Of a stretch of 64,000 bases of DNA, positions 11,210 through 21,323 are shown piece after piece. The stretch comes from Acidobacteriota bacterium (GTDB lineage Bacteria > Acidobacteriota > Vicinamibacteria > Vicinamibacterales > UBA2999), in assembly GCA_030697165.1 (NCBI GenBank), contig JAUYQQ010000008.1, positions 253,001 through 317,000 of the forward strand, written 5' to 3'. Below the pieces are notes generated by a model. It worked only from the letters and a program-made list of their open reading frames with translations, was not told the origin of the DNA and ran no database searches. A program made the translations under genes and the position numbers. Numbering within the stretch: the stretch's first letter is position 1; each line of letters starts with the position of its first letter.

Positions 11210-13804
11210 ATGTTGAAACTGTTCGTGTTGCTTATCGGTACCATCCTGCTCACGGGTCCGGCGATCTCCGCCCAGGCTCCCGCGCAGCCACAGCGTCCCG
11301 CTGCCCTGCAGTCCATCGAGGACCGCACCACCGGCATGAAGAAGATGGACGGCTACTTCCCGCTGTACTGGGATGAACGCACCGGCTCCATGTATTTGGA
11401 GATCTCGCGGTTCGACACCGAGTTCCTGTTCTCGACCGGCCTCTCGGCCGGTCTCGGCTCGAACGACATCGGTCTCGACCGCGGCACCGGCCGCGGCGGC
11501 GGGCGCCTGGTTTACTTCGAGCGCGTCGGTCCGCGCGTGATGCTGGTGCAACCGAACCAGTCGTTCCGCTCCAGCAGCAAGAACCCGCTCGAAGTGAAAT
11601 CGGTCGCCGAATCGTTCGCCAAGTCCACGCTGTGGGGGTTCGCCGTGATAGCCGAGTCCGGCGGAAGCGTGCTCGTGGATGCCACCGATTTCTTCCTGCG
11701 CGACGTGGCCGGCGCCGCCGGCAGCCTGCGCCCCGGCAACTACCGCCTTGACCGCACCCGCAGCGCTTTCTACCTGCCCAACACCCGCAACTTCCCGATG
11801 AACACCGAAGTCGACATGACGCTGACGTTCGTCAACGAACCGACTGGCGGCGGTGGCGGCGGCGGTCCCACCCAGGGCCCGGCGCCGATTGCGCCTCCGG
11901 GCGCTGGTGGTAGCGGTGGTGGCGGCGGCTTTGGCGGCGGCCTCTTTTCCGGCTCCGTGGCCAGCGTGACACCCTCGCCGAACGAGGTCACGCTTCGCGA
12001 GCACGCCTCGTTCGTGCAGCTGCCCGACAACAACTACACGCCTCGCCACGACGACCCGCGCGCCGGCTACGGCGGCGCGACGTTCGTGGATTTCAGCCAG
12101 CCGATCAGCGAGCCGATCCAGTTCCGGCTCATCCGCCGCCATCGCCTGCAGAAGAAGGATCCCACCGCCGCAATCAGCGAGCCGGTGAAGCCAATCCAGT
12201 ACTGGGTTGATTCCGGCGCGCCCGAAGACGTCAGGAAGGCGCTGATCGAAGGCGCGATGTGGTGGGATGCGGCGTTCCAGGCCGCCGGCTTCCGCAACGC
12301 GTTCAAGGTGGACGTGCTGCCCGAGGGCGCCGACCCGATGGACATCCGCTACAACATGATCAACTGGGTCCACCGCTCGACCCGCGGCTGGAGCATGGGC
12401 GGCTCGGTGTCGGATCCACGCACCGGCGAGATCATCAAGGCCACCGTCACGCTCGGCTCGCTGCGCGATCGCCAGGACTACATGATCTTCGAGGGCCTGC
12501 TGTCGCCGTATGCGAACGGCACCGAACGCCCGGCGGTCCTCTACGAGACCGCCCTGCAGCGCATCCGCCAGTTGTCGGCGCACGAGGTTGGGCACACCCT
12601 CGGCATCGGCCACAACTACTACAACAGCAGCAAGGGCTGGATCTCGGTGATGGACTATCCGGTCGCCCTCGCCGAGCTGAAAGAGGACGGCACGATCGAT
12701 CTCTCGCGTGCCTACCACCAGAACATCGGCGAGTGGGACAAGGTGGCCATCAACTGGGGCTACCGCGAGTTTCCCAATCGCGCCGAAGACGCGGCGGCGC
12801 TGCTGAAGATCCAGAACGACGCCTGGGCGGCGGACCTGCGCTACTTCACCAACCAGGACATCAGCATCCACCCCAATGCCGACCAGTGGACCAACGGCGC
12901 CAACCAGACCGACGAGCTGACCCGCTTGATGAAGGTCCGGCGCGCCGCGCTCGATCGCATCGGCACCAACACCATCCGCACCGGTGTGCCCACTGTGATG
13001 ATCGAAGAACCACTGGTGCCGATCTACATGTACCACCGCTACGCCGTCGAAAGCACCTCATCGTCGATTGGCGGCCAGGACTTCGTTTACGCGATGCGAG
13101 ACGATGGCCGCACGCCGGTGAGCTGGGTGTCGGGCGAAGCGCAGCGCAAGGCGATTGACGCGCTGACCGCGACGCTCAAGCCGTCGGAGCTGACCATCCC
13201 GAAGCGCATCCTCGACCTGATTCCGCCGCGGCCGCCAGGCTACCCCTCGCACCGCGAGCTGTTCCCGCGCACCACCGGCGAGGGCTTCGATCCCGTGAAC
13301 CCCGCGTCGATCGCCGCCGACGTCACGATTGGCTTCATGCTCCAGACCGACCGCGCCGCGCGCATGGTCACCCAGTCCGCCGTCGATCAGTCGCTGCCCG
13401 GATTGGGTGAGGTGATTGACCGGCTGGTGAGGGCCACGTTCGACGCGCCGACGTCGGGCACTTATGAAGCGGAGGTCCGGCGCGCCACCGAACGCGTGCT
13501 GGTCGACCGCCTGATGTGGCTGGCGAGCGCGGCGCCCAACGCCCAGGTGCGGGCGATCGCGTCTCTCAAGCTCGATCGGCTTCGGGCGCGGGCGGCCAAT
13601 GTCGGGCCGGCCGCCGCGGGTTCGCAGGCTGAATCGGAGCGCGCCCATCGCTTGATGATGGCCGCTGACATCAAGCGCTTCATCGAGCGGCCAGTGAACG
13701 ATCAGCTCTCGGGGCGGATTATGCCGCCATCGCCGGCGCCCCCCGGCGCGCCGATCGGCGACGAACCGCTGGAGTGGCTCGCGCGGCCGCCGTACAAGCA
13801 CTAG
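11210..13804 (+). CDS. Secreted zinc-dependent metalloprotease, DUF5117/DUF4953 type
   Basis: The ATG at 11210 follows GGAG with 5-base spacing and opens a signal peptide (MLKLFVLLIGTILLTGPAIS, then AQA). The 864-aa product has a DUF5117-like N-terminal half, a Gly-rich linker at about residues 205-245 (runs of GGGGGG), and a gluzincin or metzincin-like catalytic core with HEVGHTLGIGH near residue 458, a HExxHxxGxxH site. The C-terminal third is helical (DUF4953-like) and ends with a Pro-rich tail. Proteins of this type are widespread in Acidobacteriota and Bacteroidota and are thought to act outside the cytoplasm; natural substrates are unknown. Confidence 0.9.
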   Translation: MLKLFVLLIGTILLTGPAISAQAPAQPQRPAALQSIEDRTTGMKKMDGYFPLYWDERTGSMYLEISRFDTEFLFSTGLSAGLGSNDIGLDRGTGRGGGRLVYFERVGPRVMLVQPNQSFRSSSKNPLEVKSVAESFAKSTLWGFAVIAESGGSVLVDATDFFLRDVAGAAGSLRPGNYRLDRTRSAFYLPNTRNFPMNTEVDMTLTFVNEPTGGGGGGGPTQGPAPIAPPGAGGSGGGGGFGGGLFSGSVASVTPSPNEVTLREHASFVQLPDNNYTPRHDDPRAGYGGATFVDFSQPISEPIQFRLIRRHRLQKKDPTAAISEPVKPIQYWVDSGAPEDVRKALIEGAMWWDAAFQAAGFRNAFKVDVLPEGADPMDIRYNMINWVHRSTRGWSMGGSVSDPRTGEIIKATVTLGSLRDRQDYMIFEGLLSPYANGTERPAVLYETALQRIRQLSAHEVGHTLGIGHNYYNSSKGWISVMDYPVALAELKEDGTIDLSRAYHQNIGEWDKVAINWGYREFPNRAEDAAALLKIQNDAWAADLRYFTNQDISIHPNADQWTNGANQTDELTRLMKVRRAALDRIGTNTIRTGVPTVMIEEPLVPIYMYHRYAVESTSSSIGGQDFVYAMRDDGRTPVSWVSGEAQRKAIDALTATLKPSELTIPKRILDLIPPRPPGYPSHRELFPRTTGEGFDPVNPASIAADVTIGFMLQTDRAARMVTQSAVDQSLPGLGEVIDRLVRATFDAPTSGTYEAEVRRATERVLVDRLMWLASAAPNAQVRAIASLKLDRLRARAANVGPAAAGSQAESERAHRLMMAADIKRFIERPVNDQLSGRIMPPSPAPPGAPIGDEPLEWLARPPYKH

Positions 13805-13815
13805 TGATGGTTCGC

Positions 13816-13843
13816 GGGGACGCCCTCTGCAGGGGGGCGTCCT
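13816..13843 (+). terminator. Hairpin after the metalloprotease gene
   Basis: GGACGCCC (13818-13825) pairs with GGGCGTCC (13835-13842) around a CTCTGCAGG-type loop, 14 bases after the stop codon. No strong T-run follows, so it may be a weak or factor-assisted terminator. Confidence 0.5.
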
Positions 13844-14027
13844 CGTCGAATTGACGGCATTGAGCAAGACTCGCTCCCCGCCAACGGCCGTCCAAAGGGG
13901 TGCGGCAGATACATAACAAAAAACTAATTTATTCGAGTTAACTATCTATTTGTCTATCGGCCGCAGCGCTCGCTACATTGACCTCGTCACAGCGGCTGGT
14001 TCACCAGCCAGAGGGGACGAGGGCACC
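13844..14027. other. Intergenic region with an AT-rich island
   Basis: No gene seen. An AT-rich stretch at about 13905-13955 stands out against the GC-rich background and probably carries promoter elements for the small downstream frame; TTGACC occurs at 13977-13982. I cannot assign a definite -35/-10 pair. Confidence 0.4.
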
Positions 14028-14168
14028 ATGATCTACTTCGGTCAACATTTTGACAGCGATCAGCCGGGCAGCAGCAAGCGAAAGACGCCGCTCACCAGCC
14101 CGGCCAACCAGCCGCGCGCCGCCGTGCGGGTGGTGACGACTGGCCGGCGGCCCGAGGGCGCGGCGTAA
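14028..14168 (+). CDS. 46-aa hypothetical small protein
   Basis: ATG at 14028 with a purine-rich GAGGGGACGAGGG upstream, giving MIYFGQHFDSDQPGSSKRKT and then a Pro/Arg/Ala-rich basic tail ending RRPEGAA. There is no hydrophobic segment and no motif I recognise. It is supported only by the ribosome-site-like sequence and the AT-rich region upstream; it may not be a gene. Confidence 0.3.
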   Translation: MIYFGQHFDSDQPGSSKRKTPLTSPANQPRAAVRVVTTGRRPEGAA

Positions 14169-14198
14169 CCGCGGGTGCGGCTGAGCGGGGGCTGGCGG

Positions 14199-14501
14199 TC
14201 AGAACTTTTCGGGTCGAAGGACCGCGACCTCGCCGATGTACAGGATCATGGCGTAGTTGTCGTAATAGCGCGTCTGGAGCATGGCCGCAATCGCATCGGC
14301 GACGCCGGCCTGGCACACCACTTCGATCCGAATATTGGCACTCGGCGTCCAACTGGCGTTGCGGACGCCGCGGCCGCCCTTACCGCGCGCGTCGGTGATG
14401 GTGTAGCCGGACGCACCCAGCCGTTGAATCTCGCCAACCAACTCGTGCTCCAGTGCGGCTTCGGTAACGATGGTCACCAGCTTGCGATGTTCCACGGACA
14501 T
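14199..14501 (-). CDS. sbtB: PII-like signalling protein SbtB
   Basis: A 100-aa PII-fold protein starting MSVEHRKLVTIVTEAALEHE; the conserved T-loop region is GYTITDARGKGGRG, and the C-terminal strand YAMILYIGEVAVLRPEKF is typical of SbtB. In cyanobacteria SbtB binds adenine nucleotides, including cAMP, and controls the bicarbonate transporter SbtA. This copy stops at RPEKF and lacks the C-terminal redox loop (CGPxGC) of many cyanobacterial forms. It starts 7 bases after the sbtA stop, with GGGAGGAT overlapping the end of sbtA, so the two are co-translated. Confidence 0.85.
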   Translation of the reverse strand: MSVEHRKLVTIVTEAALEHELVGEIQRLGASGYTITDARGKGGRGVRNASWTPSANIRIEVVCQAGVADAIAAMLQTRYYDNYAMILYIGEVAVLRPEKF

Positions 14502-14508
14502 GGTGTGG

Positions 14509-15456
14509 TCATCCTCCCAGGCGATAAAGGTACTCGGCAAACCGGTGGTAGAGGGGAATGCCGACCACGATATTGAAAGGAAAGGTGATCCCCAGGGAGG
14601 CGGCCAGCGACAGCGCCGGATTGGCCTCGGGTACCGACAGGCGCATGGCGGCGGGCACCGCGATGTACGACGCACTCGCCATCAGGGTCGCCAGCAGCGC
14701 CGTTCCTCCCACCGACAGCCCCATCCCCCACCCCAACCCGGCGCCACGGGCGCCGGCGACCAGCGGCATGGCAATGCCGAACACAACCAGAAACGCGCCA
14801 TGGCGGCGGAGGCTCCCGGCCTGGCCGGCGGCTATCAGGCCCATTTCAAGCAGGAACAGGGCGAGCACGCCCTTGAACAGATCCATAAACAGGGGCTCGA
14901 CTGGCCTGATGCCCTCGGCGCCGGCGACCCAGCCAATGATTAACCCGCCGAGCAGCAGCACGATGCTCTTGCCCAGCAGGACTTCGCGCGCGATCGGCCG
15001 CCAGGGCGCGTTGCGGTCGATGCCTCGCGCCAACAAAATTCCCACGACGATGGCGGGCATCTCCAGCAGCACCAGGAACACGGCGACGTATCCCTCAAAA
15101 GCGACCTGCCGACTGGCCAGATAGGCGACGGCCACCGCGTACGTTCCAACGCTCACCGAGCCGTAGTGCGCGGCAATCGAGGCCGCATCGGCCCTCGCCA
15201 GGCGGCCTGCGATCCGCAGGACCGGGTAGGCCGCCAGCGGCAGCAGGACGCCCATCAGGACCACCACCAACATCTGCGGCAACAGCGCGCCAAACGGCTG
15301 CGCCGCCAGCTCGACGCCGCCCTTCAGGCCGATGGTCAGCAGCAGCAGGATGGTCAGGAAGTCGTAGATGGCCGGCGGCAGCCGCAAGTCGGCGCGCAGC
15401 AGGCCGGCGGTGAGGCCCAGCAGGAAGAACAGGACGACCGGATCGAGTGTGGTCAT
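14509..15456 (-). CDS. sbtA: SbtA-type sodium-dependent bicarbonate transporter
   Basis: A 315-aa membrane protein of the SbtA (DUF897) family with about ten hydrophobic helices in two inverted halves. Family signatures are ADLRLPPAIYDFLTILLLLT near the N-terminus, GLKGGVELA, YGSVSVGTYAVAVAYL and, in the second half, LMASASYIAVPAAMRLSVPE. SbtA imports bicarbonate with sodium; the Ser-rich motifs that hold the substrate (GSVS and SASYIAVP) are present. A GTG nine bases upstream is an alternative start. A PII-like SbtB follows, and a LysR gene is divergent. Outside cyanobacteria this pair probably serves anaplerotic carbon supply or pH and inorganic-carbon homeostasis (inference). Confidence 0.88.
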   Translation of the reverse strand: MTTLDPVVLFFLLGLTAGLLRADLRLPPAIYDFLTILLLLTIGLKGGVELAAQPFGALLPQMLVVVLMGVLLPLAAYPVLRIAGRLARADAASIAAHYGSVSVGTYAVAVAYLASRQVAFEGYVAVFLVLLEMPAIVVGILLARGIDRNAPWRPIAREVLLGKSIVLLLGGLIIGWVAGAEGIRPVEPLFMDLFKGVLALFLLEMGLIAAGQAGSLRRHGAFLVVFGIAMPLVAGARGAGLGWGMGLSVGGTALLATLMASASYIAVPAAMRLSVPEANPALSLAASLGITFPFNIVVGIPLYHRFAEYLYRLGG

Positions 15457-15495
15457 GCTGATCACGCCACAGGATCAGGCCTTGGCGGAGCGCAA

Positions 15496-17379: not shown

Positions 17380-17393
17380 ATGACGGCCGTCAT
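17380..17393 (+). promoter_or_regulatory. Perfect palindrome upstream of napDAB
   Basis: ATGACGGCCGTCAT, a perfect 14-base palindrome centred about 42 bases before the napD ATG at 17429. The TGAC-N4-GTCA core resembles sites of the CRP/FNR/Dnr family, and the spacing would suit class II activation if transcription starts at or next to the ATG. Confidence 0.5.
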
Positions 17394-17428
17394 GGCAGAA
17401 CGGGGTGCCGACAGCCATCATTGCCGTG

Positions 17429-17728
17429 ATGCCGGCCTTTGCATACGGGCAGGCGCACGTGTCGGGCCTGCTCGTCACGGTGCGACCGGGCCATCTGGAT
17501 TCCGTGGCACGCAGCCTCGCCGCCCTCCCCGGCGTGGTGGTGCACGTCAGCGACGAGGCCGGGGGCCGGCTCGTCACCACCCTCGAAACGCCCACGCTCG
17601 AAGACCTGAAGAATGGGTACGCCGCCATGGCCAGCCTGGCACACGTGGTGTCGGTGGCCGTGGTGTGCCACTACGTCGACGGTCCCGCCGCCGACCGCAA
17701 GGCCCCCTGGGCCGGAGGTGCCGCTTGA
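17429..17728 (+). CDS. napD: NapD, nitrate reductase maturation chaperone
   Basis: A 99-aa protein beginning [20 protein letters not shown]. From HVSGLLV on it follows the NapD ferredoxin-like fold: [20 protein letters not shown] and [15 protein letters not shown]. NapD binds the twin-arginine signal of NapA in the cytoplasm and holds it back until the cofactors are inserted. An upstream GTG in the same frame (17405) is an alternative start; the family normally begins just before HVSG. Its TGA overlaps the TTG start of napA. Confidence 0.88.
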
Positions 17729-20499
17729 CGGGTCATAGCCGACGCGCGTTCCTCCGGGCCAGCGCCGCGGCGGCCGCCGCCGCCGCCGCCGGCCTGCAAC
17801 TCCCCGCCGGCCTGGCGGCACTCGCCCGCGACGGCCAGGAGTCGTGGAGCTGGGACAAGGGCGTCTGCCGTTTCTGCGGCACTGGTTGCGGCCTGCAGAT
17901 TGCCACCAACGAGGGCCGGGTCGTGGCCGTGAAAGGCGACCCCGACTCCCCGGTCAATCGCGGGTTGCTCTGCGTCAAGGGGTACGCCAATGCGCAGATC
18001 TTGTACGGCGAGGGCCGGCTCACCACGCCCCTGCTGCGCATGAAGAACGGCCGCTTCGACAAGCAGGGCGCGTTCGCCCCGGTCACGTGGGAGCGGGCAT
18101 TCGAGGAGATGGCGCGCCAGTTCAAGCGCGTCCACCAGGAGTTGGGGCCGACCGGCGTGGCGGTGATGGGGTCTGGACAGTACACCATCCAGGAGGGCTA
18201 CGCCGCCGCCAAGCTGGTCAAGGCCGGCTGGCGCAGCAACAACCTCGACCCCAACGCCCGCCACTGCATGGCCTCGGCCGTGGCGGGATTCATGCAGACC
18301 TTCGGCATCGACGAGCCCGCCGGTTGCTACGACGACATCGAGCTCACCAACACCGTCGTCAGCTGGGGCGCCAACATGGCCGAGATGCACCCCATGCTGT
18401 GGGCGCGGGTCACCGCGCGCAAGCTGGCCGACCCCGGCTACCGCATCATGCACCTGACGACGTTCACCACGCCCACCTCGGCGCTGGCCGACGTGGAGAT
18501 CGTGTTCCGGCCGCAGACCGACCTGGCCATCTGGAACTACCTCGCGCGGGAAATCATCGCCCGCGGCGCGGTCGATCGCGAGTTTGTCGATAACCACTGC
18601 GTGTTCGCCGCCGGGCCCACCGACATTGGGTACGGGCTGCGCGACGACGACCGCGGCATGCGTCCGGCCGAGCGGGACACGCGAGCCGAGCAGCGCGCGC
18701 ATGTCCTCTCCCAGGATGAAGCCGTGGCGCAGGGGCGGGCGGCCGACGCGGGCCGGGCGGTGCCGCAGGCCCGCAGCGCGCAGGCCCACAACCACTGGCT
18801 CATTTCGTTCGACGAGTTTCGCAAGGCCGTGGAGCCCTATACCCTCGACTTCGTGGCCGCTCTCGCGCGAGGCCGCGCCGACGAGCCCCTGGACGAATTC
18901 AAGGCCAAGCTCGTGCAGTTGGCCGACGCCTACGCCGACCGCGCACGAAAGGTCGTCTCGTTCTGGACGATGGGCTTCAACCAGAGCACGCGCGGGACAT
19001 GGCTCAACGAGCAGGCGTACATGATGCACCTGCTCACGGGCAAGTACGCCAAGCCCGGCAACAGCGCCTTCTCGCTGACGGGCCAGCCCTCCGCCTGCGG
19101 GACCGCCCGCGAAGTGGGCACGTTCGCAAACCGGCTGCCGGCGGACATGACCGTAGAGAGCGCCGCCGACCGGAGGCGCGCCGAGGAGCTGTGGCGGCTC
19201 CCGGCCGGGACGATCAATCCCAAGGCGGGCAGCCACATCATCCAGATGATGCGCGACCTCGAGGACGGCCGCATCAAGTGGCTCTGGGTACAGGTGACCA
19301 ACCCGTTCCAGTCCACGGCCAACGCCGGCCACTGGGTGGAGGCGGCGCGGCAGCTCGACGCGTTCATCGTCGTGTCGGACGTCTACCCCGGCATCTCCAC
19401 GCGCGTGGCCGATCTGGTGCTCCCGTCGGCCATGATCTTCGAGAAGTGGGGCGGCTACGGCAACAGCGAACGGCGCACGCAGCTGTGGCGCCAGCAGGTG
19501 TCCGCCCCTGGCGAGGCGCGCTCCGATCTATGGCAGATGCTCGAGTTCTCGAAGCGCTTCACGATTGCCGACGTCTGGGGGCGCCAGCGCGTGGCAGGCC
19601 TGGTCGCCCAGGGCTTTACGGACGGCACGCTACCCGACGTGATCGAGCATGCGAAGGCCCACGGCCTGGCGCCGGACACTACGCTGTACGAGGCGCTCTT
19701 CGCGACGCCGGCCGGACGCAAGGTGGCCTGGCCGGATCCCGTGGCGAAGGGCCACGCCAACGACACCGCCGTCCACCTCGGGGACGGGTGGTTTCCTGAG
19801 AAGGCGCTCTTCGAGGAGTACGCGTCGTTCGGCCGTGGCCACGCGCACGACCTGGCATCGTTCGACACCTACCTCGCGGACGACGTGCGCGGGCTCCGCT
19901 GGCCGGTGGTCAACGGCAAGGAGACACGGTGGCGCTTCAACGGTGAACACGACCCGTACGTGCGCGCCGGCGCCGCGATCGATTTCTACGGACCGGCGAT
20001 GAAGTCGCAGCCCTCGGGCGACCTCCACGGCCCCGCGCCAGGGCCGCCGGTGTCGCTGGCCGGCAAGGCCAAGATTTTCTTCCGCCCGTACGCGGCGCCA
20101 CCCGAGACGCCCGATGCCACTTACGACCTGTGGCTCAGCACGGGCCGCGTCCTCGAACACTGGCATTCGGGCACGATCACCCGCCGCGTGCCCCAACTGC
20201 ACCGCGCGGTGCCGGCGGCGCTGCTCTTCATGCATCCCGAGGACGCCAAGGCGCGAGGGCTGTCGCGCCATGACTCGGCCTGGATCGAGTCGCGTCGCGG
20301 TCGCGTGCGGCTGCGCGTCGAGACCGAAGGGCGCTACGGCATGCCGCGCGGCATGGTGTACGTGCCCTGGTTCGACGAGAACGTCTTCATCAACCTGGTG
20401 ACGCTCGACGCCACCTGTCCCATCTCGAAGCAAACCGACTACAAGAAGTGCGCGGTCCGGGTGGTGCGGGCCACCGACCCCACTGCGGCTGGAGGGTAA
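17725..20499 (+). CDS. napA: NapA, periplasmic nitrate reductase catalytic subunit
   Basis: The start is a TTG (17725) that overlaps the napD stop as TTGA and is preceded by GGAGG with a 6-base spacer. The 924-aa product has a twin-arginine signal (SRRAFLR followed by an alanine run), a 4Fe-4S site with Cys48, Cys51, Cys55 and Cys83, and the molybdenum ligand Cys181 in [10 protein letters not shown]. It matches E. coli NapA throughout, including [19 protein letters not shown] and [12 protein letters not shown]. It is about 90 residues longer than usual, with an extra Arg/Ala-rich segment near residues 315-355. It reduces nitrate to nitrite in the periplasm using bis-MGD molybdenum. Confidence 0.97.
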
Positions 20500-20501
20500 T
20501 C

Positions 20502-20924
20502 GTGCGACGGCAGGTGTTCCTCTCGATGGTGATGCTGCTGGCCGCGCCGCCAGCCCTCCTCGGACAAGCCACGACGGACAGGCCTGCGGCGACCGATACG
20601 CCGCCCGCCTACGAGTACAACGACCAGCGGCCCGGCCAGAGCCAGCGGCTGCCGCGCGCGTGGGAAGGCGCGCCGCCGCTCGTGCCCCACGCCATCCGTG
20701 GGCTGATACCCATCACCGGACGGAACAACGCGTGCGTGCGATGCCATGGTCGCGCGGGCGCCACCACCGGACCGCCGCCGGCGCCGGCGAGCCACTTCGT
20801 GGACACACGCGAGGCCCCCGGCGTCGCGCGCCCGCAGCTGGCCGGCGCGCGCTGGAACTGCACGGCCTGCCACGTGCCGCAAACCAACGCGCCGCCGCTC
20901 GTGAGCACCCCCGAGGCCCGGTGA
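20502..20924 (+). CDS. napB: NapB, diheme cytochrome c subunit
   Basis: The GTG at 20502 lies 2 bases after the napA stop, with GGAGG in the end of napA. The 140-aa product has a signal peptide (MRRQVFLSMVMLLAAPPALL) and two c-type heme sites, CVRCH and CTACH. Axial-histidine regions VPHAIRGLIPI and SHFVDT match NapB. It passes electrons to NapA in the periplasm. In most organisms it receives them from NapC or NapGH, neither of which is present here. Confidence 0.93.
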   Translation: MRRQVFLSMVMLLAAPPALLGQATTDRPAATDTPPAYEYNDQRPGQSQRLPRAWEGAPPLVPHAIRGLIPITGRNNACVRCHGRAGATTGPPPAPASHFVDTREAPGVARPQLAGARWNCTACHVPQTNAPPLVSTPEAR

Positions 20925-20930
20925 TGACCC

Positions 20931-21323
20931 ATGCCTGATACCCCCACGGCCCTGCCGGACATCGAGTCGCGGGCGGATGTCGTCCGCCTCGTCGACACCT
21001 TCTACGATCGCGTCCGGGCCGACGACCTGCTCGGCCCCATCTTCGACGATATCGCGAAGATCGACTGGCGCGTGCACCTGCCGAAGATGTACGGCTTCTG
21101 GGCGGCCGTGCTCTTTGGCGAGCCCGGCTTCAAGGGCAGCCCCATGGCGGTGCACCTCGCCCTGGCGCGCCAGACACCGCTAGGCGCGCGCGAGTTCGCC
21201 CGGTGGATCGAGCAGTTTCACGCCAACGTCGACGCCAACTTCGAAGGGCCAATGGCCACTGAAGCCAAGGCGCGCGCGTCGCGCATTGCGGAAGTGATGC
21301 AGCAGTACCTCGCCAGGCACTGA
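20931..21323 (+). CDS. Group III truncated hemoglobin
   Basis: A 130-aa globin with the group III pattern: RLVDTFYDRVRADDLLGPIF (tyrosine B10 in FYD), the E-helix region FWAAVLFGEPGFKGSPM, the proximal histidine in AVHLALARQ, and REFARWIEQFHANVDANFEG. It lies 6 bases after napB and is almost certainly in the same operon. Truncated hemoglobins bind oxygen and nitric oxide; here a role in removing NO or nitrosative by-products of nitrate reduction is a strong contextual inference. Confidence 0.92.
   Translation: MPDTPTALPDIESRADVVRLVDTFYDRVRADDLLGPIFDDIAKIDWRVHLPKMYGFWAAVLFGEPGFKGSPMAVHLALARQTPLGAREFARWIEQFHANVDANFEGPMATEAKARASRIAEVMQQYLARH

Follow-up and report, generated by a model that had tools for sequence, protein, structure and literature searches.

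How does a periplasmic nitrate reductase (Nap) obtain its electrons if no quinol dehydrogenase is encoded beside it? The question is raised by the operon napD-napA-napB-trHbIII, which ends in a gene for a group III-type truncated haemoglobin (trHb) and occupies positions 17429-21323 on the + strand of a 64,000-nucleotide stretch of DNA from an Acidobacteriota bacterium (assembly GCA_030697165.1, contig JAUYQQ010000008.1, positions 253,001 to 317,000), hereafter the window. The genome analysed, G000, comprises 5,388,385 bases in 23 contigs, with a completeness of 100 and a contamination of 1.55. As the original prediction had it, neither napC nor napGH adjoins napDAB in the window. The missing quinol partner is not peculiar to G000, as its closest relatives in several phyla are alike, and donor candidates are present in G000, none of them linked to nap. 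Papers given by PMC number are cited from excerpts; in those of a 2026 review, four nap layouts are distinguished, napEDABC, napDAGHB, napCMADGH and napAGHBFLD (PMC13223375), to which napDAB with neither napC nor napGH adds another variant. We regard it as probable, if only just, that this is a napDAB-only Nap variant fed by a shared cytochrome bc or NrfH route, with the operon under CRP/FNR-type control and the globin appended.

The operon and its NapA clade

The named genome collection yielded 567 confirmed NapA relatives, the best 80 of which formed the comparison set; linkage of napG or napH was scored by phmmer with reference Nap proteins within the available DNA around napA. NapG or NapH lies alongside napA in 42 of these 80 relatives, and neither does in 38. 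An 88-row NapA tree, built without locus L081, places the window NapA within a 29-row clade (Shimodaira-Hasegawa-like approximate likelihood ratio test, SH-aLRT, 100) whose members belong to Acidobacteriota, Holophagaceae, Anaeromyxobacter, Methylomirabilis and Latescibacterota, together with one record labelled Acidimicrobiia. Linked napGH is absent from all 27 scored rows of the clade, a count that concerns the surroundings of napA, the remainder of the other clade genomes not having been searched for it. These rows represent 26 distinct loci, with L056 and L039 lying on the same contig; two rows were left unscored where contigs end, and the contig of L090 ends 542 bases past napA. A second set lacking napGH comprises eight Gallionellaceae-type and two Chromatiales-type rows (9/9 scored), and across the tree the linked-napGH label changes 5 times, against 27 in shuffles. 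napD was not detected in 14 of the 28 non-window clade loci, some of which have little upstream DNA. The napDAB arrangement without a quinol partner has the appearance of a layout that has seldom been described, not of a damaged operon, and no description of a napDAB-only lineage was found in the open-licence papers searched. In excerpts of a recent NapA phylogeny, only sequences with model-organism-like operon subunits were kept (PMC12769810), a selection rule that could have excluded napGH-less loci.

A different explanation is that such loci are degenerate or assimilatory remnants, in which NapAB would be fed by any periplasmic cytochrome c and would serve redox balancing or scavenging, not respiration. 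This would suit the Gallionellaceae napGH-less loci, which are without any match to PF03264 (NapC/NirT), and locus L086 (2614-11276; Gallionellales bacterium), where by eye napAB follows assimilatory-type nitrite and nitrate reductase genes. However, all NapA and NapB cofactor ligands are kept, the napGH-less state is conserved clade-wide, and in the palindrome pattern described below Nap appears co-regulated with nosZ; we consider the remnant explanation improbable, and retain a working Nap variant as the preferred reading. Elsewhere in the set, L074 (7001-10210) holds a single 1070-codon open frame that covers napA plus a dihaem part and may encode a NapA-NapB fusion.

The operon is packed as tightly as was originally described. 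The napD stop TGA (17726-17728) and the napA TTG start (17725) overlap by 4 bases, 2 bases separate the napA end (20499) from the napB GTG (20502), and 6 bases separate the napB end (20924) from the trHb ATG (20931); a sequence scan showed nothing resembling a terminator between napB and trHb, which are presumably co-transcribed. napD starts at ATG 17429 or alternatively at GTG 17405; ATG 17380 was rejected as its start, being out of frame with napD and belonging to the palindrome ATGACGGCCGTCAT. Besides the models in the table, NapA passed a second one (NF010055, 1301 against a cut-off of 904). The stricter NCBIfam models were missed by NapD (38.1 against 113) and NapB (NF008609, 58 against 230), and trHb matches no NCBIfam model. 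NapA carries the twin-arginine (Tat) signal RRAFLR, cysteines 48, 51, 55 and 83, which we take to bind a 4Fe-4S cluster, and Cys181 in RHCMAS, the candidate and presumed Mo ligand. The cysteine roles follow in part excerpts of PMC12769810.

Upstream of the operon lie a family-3 solute-binding protein gene and a LysR gene, and downstream, on the opposite strand, an open reading frame (ORF) for an RND-type transporter, named by eye and not scanned. Near a LysR gene, an Sbt-type bicarbonate transporter gene and an overlapping P-II-like gene occupy 14199-15465 on the - strand.

Table 1. Features of the napDAB-trHb operon, with positions in the window
Feature	Position	Strand	Evidence
Palindrome ATGACGGCCGTCAT (TGA-N6-TCA dyad), candidate CRP/FNR-family operator	17380..17393		Same place before napD in 5/5 family operons
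napD, maturation chaperone	17429..17728	+	PF03927, 67.2 bits (cut-off 28)
napA, long catalytic subunit, 924 residues, TTG start	17725..20499	+	TIGR01706, 1267.9 bits (cut-off 930.55)
Arg/Ala-rich extra segment, NapA residues 305-360	18637..18804	+	In five family long NapAs; different sequence in 9pxt_A
napB, dihaem cytochrome c (CVRCH, CTACH)	20502..20924	+	PF03892, 87.9 bits (cut-off 25.1); match to 1ogy_B
Group III-type truncated haemoglobin	20931..21323	+	PF01152 (Bac_globin), 23.6 bits (cut-off 21); best PDB match 2ig3

A palindrome common to nap and other N-oxide genes

Sites of FNR and CRP have the spacing TGA-N6-TCA. A palindrome of this spacing precedes napD in its strict form, ATGAC-N4-GTCAT, in the window, L036, L037 and L038, and in a relaxed form, ATGAYNNNNRTCAT (ATGAT-N4-GTCAT), in L039. 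The relaxed pattern has 25 sites in G000, against 0 for a reversed-pattern control, and the strict one 13, of which seven are situated at nap, a NapH-like gene, nosZ, a heptahaem cytochrome gene (two) and a CtaA/CopD-type pair (two). In six relatives (G001, G006, G007, G009, G040 and G042), the palindrome stands before an operon for a flavoprotein, a Rieske protein, cytochrome b, a multihaem cytochrome and NosZ; in G039 the contig ends before the corresponding operon, and in G009 this nosZ operon adjoins napDAB, with a separate palindrome for each. Vicinamibacteria are reported, in excerpts of PMC13122619, as prevalent soil carriers of nosZ.

We propose that a CRP/FNR-family regulator at ATGAC-N4-GTCAT would switch nap, nosZ and further N-oxide genes jointly. 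A candidate for it is the CRP-family protein encoded at 11366-12055 of L154, a stretch (G000:C22:374500-394000) that also holds nosZ; its gene adjoins one for a RIC-type iron-sulphur repair protein. The protein is cysteine-free and has none of the Fe-S cysteines of an FNR-type regulator; it is a putative regulator at the 17380 palindrome.

Two side observations concern the other genes of this pattern. In L154, a heptahaem cytochrome (13166-15070), made up of two CBB3-type domains and a multihaem part, has the palindrome on both sides, and in G009 a homologue adjoins napAB (L038, 1509-3512). The NosZ operons L225, L226, L231, L232 and L234-L236 are preceded by genes for a pyridine-nucleotide/4Fe-4S flavoprotein, a Rieske protein, cytochrome b and a multihaem cytochrome; in most of them the palindrome lies upstream.

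Candidate electron donors to NapB

The whole-genome search of G000 took in napC/NirT (PF03264) and NapH (TIGR02163), and left out napE, napF and napG. The PF03264 profile, with an E. coli positive control that matched, gave two matches above cut-off. The one on contig C17 (10617-11051) is NrfH (TIGR03153, 165.2 bits; cut-off 134.2), whose gene overlaps one of NrfA type (459 bits on PF02335, though below the NCBIfam NrfA cut-offs); the one on C10 (122633-122893) belongs to a 471-residue five-haem protein adjoining cytochrome b561 and a ten-haem protein. TIGR02163 gave two matches only, both under the cut-off of 213.05 (69.4 and 56.3 bits). Cytochrome b (PF00033) was found in two places, on C4 and C15, and on C4 a Rieske protein (47.7 bits) precedes a cytochrome b fused to cytochrome c (158 and 52.9 bits). 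With NrfH on C17 and the Rieske/cytochrome b-c genes on C4, the earlier supposition that a cytochrome elsewhere could substitute was supported by this genome-wide check.

A scheme can be outlined from these gene products. NapD would mature NapA, and the Tat-exported NapA would receive electrons through the dihaem NapB, which in turn would draw on shared quinol:cytochrome c chemistry with genes elsewhere in the genome, in place of a dedicated NapC or NapGH. The most likely donor would be the Rieske/cytochrome b-c complex, with NrfH as a parallel or alternative one, and there is a described parallel for the former: in excerpts on Campylobacter jejuni, deletion of qcrABC abolishes nitrate reduction with physiological donors (PMC6195509). 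If NapB is indeed fed by the bc complex alone, these organisms would conserve energy in nitrate reduction. A stronger version, tentative and on balance doubtful, is that napDAB/napAB without a quinol dehydrogenase is a fifth layout, fixed in an Acidobacteriota-centred NapA clade, in which coupling to a proton-motive Rieske/cytochrome b-c complex is obligate; periplasmic nitrate reduction would then be energy-conserving and NapGH dispensable. The role of NapGH is unclear because C. jejuni nitrate respiration, as excerpted, needs both QcrABC and NapGH (PMC6195509); a NapA clade that works with no napGH linked to it would set these two roles apart.

As a separate observation, G000 holds a second NapA-like enzyme at 7048-15357 of L033 (G000:C15:266000-283000), which scores 955 bits on TIGR01706, above cut-off. 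Its apparent operon adds a tetrahaem protein weakly similar to NapB, an octahaem cytochrome, cytochrome b, a Rieske motif and COX1/COX2-type genes; in L046, its counterpart in G010, the Rieske protein is confirmed by Pfam. Such second copies occur in 6 of 43 family genomes, and this Nap-type enzyme with a bc module of its own merits a separate look.

Several results weigh against the shared bc/NrfH route under CRP/FNR-type control. No sigma-70-like promoter was found, and the promoter and terminator scan of the operon gave nothing above chance. At least five of the six other strict palindromes of G000 lie inside called ORFs; all 43 family genomes, with or without nosZ, carry strict sites, a coding background above which the excess is only moderate, at 1.99 per Mb with nosZ and 1.45 without (p 0.004, kinship ignored). 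Because the reversed control ignores codon bias and this background is general, the genome-wide count is weakened as proof of a regulon, and positions upstream of genes were relied on instead. The nrfHA genes of G000 have no such palindrome, and the relatives' palindrome-controlled Rieske/cytochrome b operon continues into nosZ, whereas G000 is without that cytochrome b. The clade-wide lack of napGH is, as said, a lack of linkage. Finally, among 37 of the 38 napGH-less genomes, searched whole, a short and near-full-length NapC/NrfH-type protein (open frames under about 270 residues; G203 and G199 were added by model coverage) is present in 16, matches are longer or partial only in 11, and no match of any kind was found in 10. 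A short one also occurs in 4 of 13 napGH-bearing controls, and NapC/NrfH presence was rejected as a marker of napGH-less genomes.

These counts bear directly on the rival that NrfH, encoded by nrfHA, is the electron donor to NapAB. NrfH passes its curated cut-off in G000 and, in excerpts on C. jejuni, was proposed as a residual donor to NapB (PMC6195509); moreover, nrfH-nrfA-napA-napB stand in one row in L065 and L067, and nrfA precedes napA in L082. Within the clade, however, a short protein of NapC/NrfH type turned up in just 14 of 24 genomes searched. Among the family genomes with long NapA, G039 has a short match, but G009 and G040 have none. Since a protein of this type was detected in 16 of 37 napGH-less genomes and not in G009 and G040, NrfH cannot be the sole donor, and with its gene in G000 also lacking the palindrome, we judge this rival unlikely.

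The NapH-like protein of C10 (144880-145899; 69.4 bits), a 4Fe-4S membrane protein with four predicted spans and two 4Fe-4S motifs, offers another route, in which it would act under palindrome control as the quinol dehydrogenase for NapB without NapG. Its gene has the same palindrome upstream, its similarity to NapH is distant (about 70 bits), and in G009 a trHb homologue directly follows the NapH-like gene under the same palindrome. Yet it falls far under the NapH cut-off, has no strong match in the long-NapA genomes G039 and G040, and is present in G001, G006, G007 and G031, all without long NapA. In G001, G006 and G007 it lies within 6-17 kb of nosZ, so that it may serve N2O reduction, and a role as donor to NapB seems very unlikely. 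The original prediction had named a co-regulated napC or napGH elsewhere in the genome as the finding that would count against it; the outcome is divided, as the NapH-like gene shares the palindrome and nrfHA does not. We keep the shared bc/NrfH route as the preferred reading.

The globin, the long NapA and known Nap systems

The closest solved protein to trHb is 2ig3, of group III (E 7e-14, 55 bits, 113 residues aligned), and the alignment keeps Tyr, Phe, His, His and Trp at what we take to be the haem-pocket positions. No signal peptide is evident by eye, so the globin would be cytoplasmic and would not act on periplasmic NapAB; it may bind or detoxify nitric oxide (NO) that reaches the cytoplasm, and it seems to have joined the operon in this lineage. 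Relatives of trHb occur in 20 of 162 genomes of the order, and strong matches in the family are confined to G000, G009, G010, G039 and G040; all four family genomes with long NapA have it, against a strong match in 1 of 39 others (4e-5 by a simple count, kinship ignored). The original prediction saw in the globin, by its fixed place at the operon end, a built-in nitrosative-stress module. The stress link is supported, because relatives share the palindrome in two genomes or adjoin an Rrf2-family regulator in three (L210, L217 and L220). The palindrome, allowing up to 2 mismatches to the 16-base consensus, is near trHb in 2 of 17 trHb stretches outside the window: in L213 just upstream of trHb, and in L218 with the NapH-like gene and trHb adjacent. 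The fixed place does not stand, as trHb after napB was found in 0 of 80 named relatives and 0 of 4 family long-nap loci by single-query phmmer (E 1e-4), which a very distant globin could escape; in L127 a globin lies on the opposite strand about 1.6 kb past napD. A fixed globin in nap was thus rejected, the window alone among the compared loci having trHb after napB, and trHb seems to belong to an N-oxide regulon without a set place, its position in nap being a local arrangement. Caution comes from Helicobacter pullorum, where, in excerpts, a trHb deletion is as resistant to S-nitrosoglutathione (GSNO) as the wild type (PMC5577044).

NapA was first taken to be of unusual length, with about 90 extra residues, but it is of the same size as the 924-residue C. 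jejuni NapA. Among solved structures, 9pxt_A (924 residues) matches the window NapA best, with 1202.5 bits across residues 5-916 compared with 950.5 bits for the best medium-size NapA structure, and it holds the three insert peptides printed for C. jejuni NapA in PMC12769810. As the extra segments are common to all five family sequences and to 9pxt_A, a unique or aberrant NapA is ruled out. The suggestion that the extra segment lies at the NapB face also fared poorly, since three of six inserts of C. jejuni NapA are placed at the substrate channel in excerpts of PMC12769810. Those inserts are Lys-rich, whereas residues 305-360 of the window NapA have no Lys (6 Arg, 12 Ala and 0 Lys in the 41 residues 315-355, net charge 0), and no positive net charge was found on segments 305-360, 620-660 and 756-780 (net 0, -2 and 0). 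The nitrate-docking idea is therefore not simply transferable from C. jejuni.

Among known systems, the four review layouts share napD, napA, napB and partly their order with the window, but the window and its clade are without linked napC or napGH. C. jejuni Nap (napAGHBLD-type, PDB 9pxt) is close in its NapA, with the extra segments aligning end to end, and likewise has no NapC, QcrABC being needed there for nitrate reduction; unlike the window, Campylobacter retains napG and napH, both of them essential there (excerpts of PMC6195509). C. jejuni Ctb (2ig3) is the best solved match to trHb, although at a low score. To our knowledge, Ctb is not part of the C. jejuni nap operon. Shewanella Nap-beta is fed by CymA, a NapC/NirT-family cytochrome encoded elsewhere; G000 is alike in having a cytochrome of this family elsewhere, and here the only short one is NrfH, beside nrfA.

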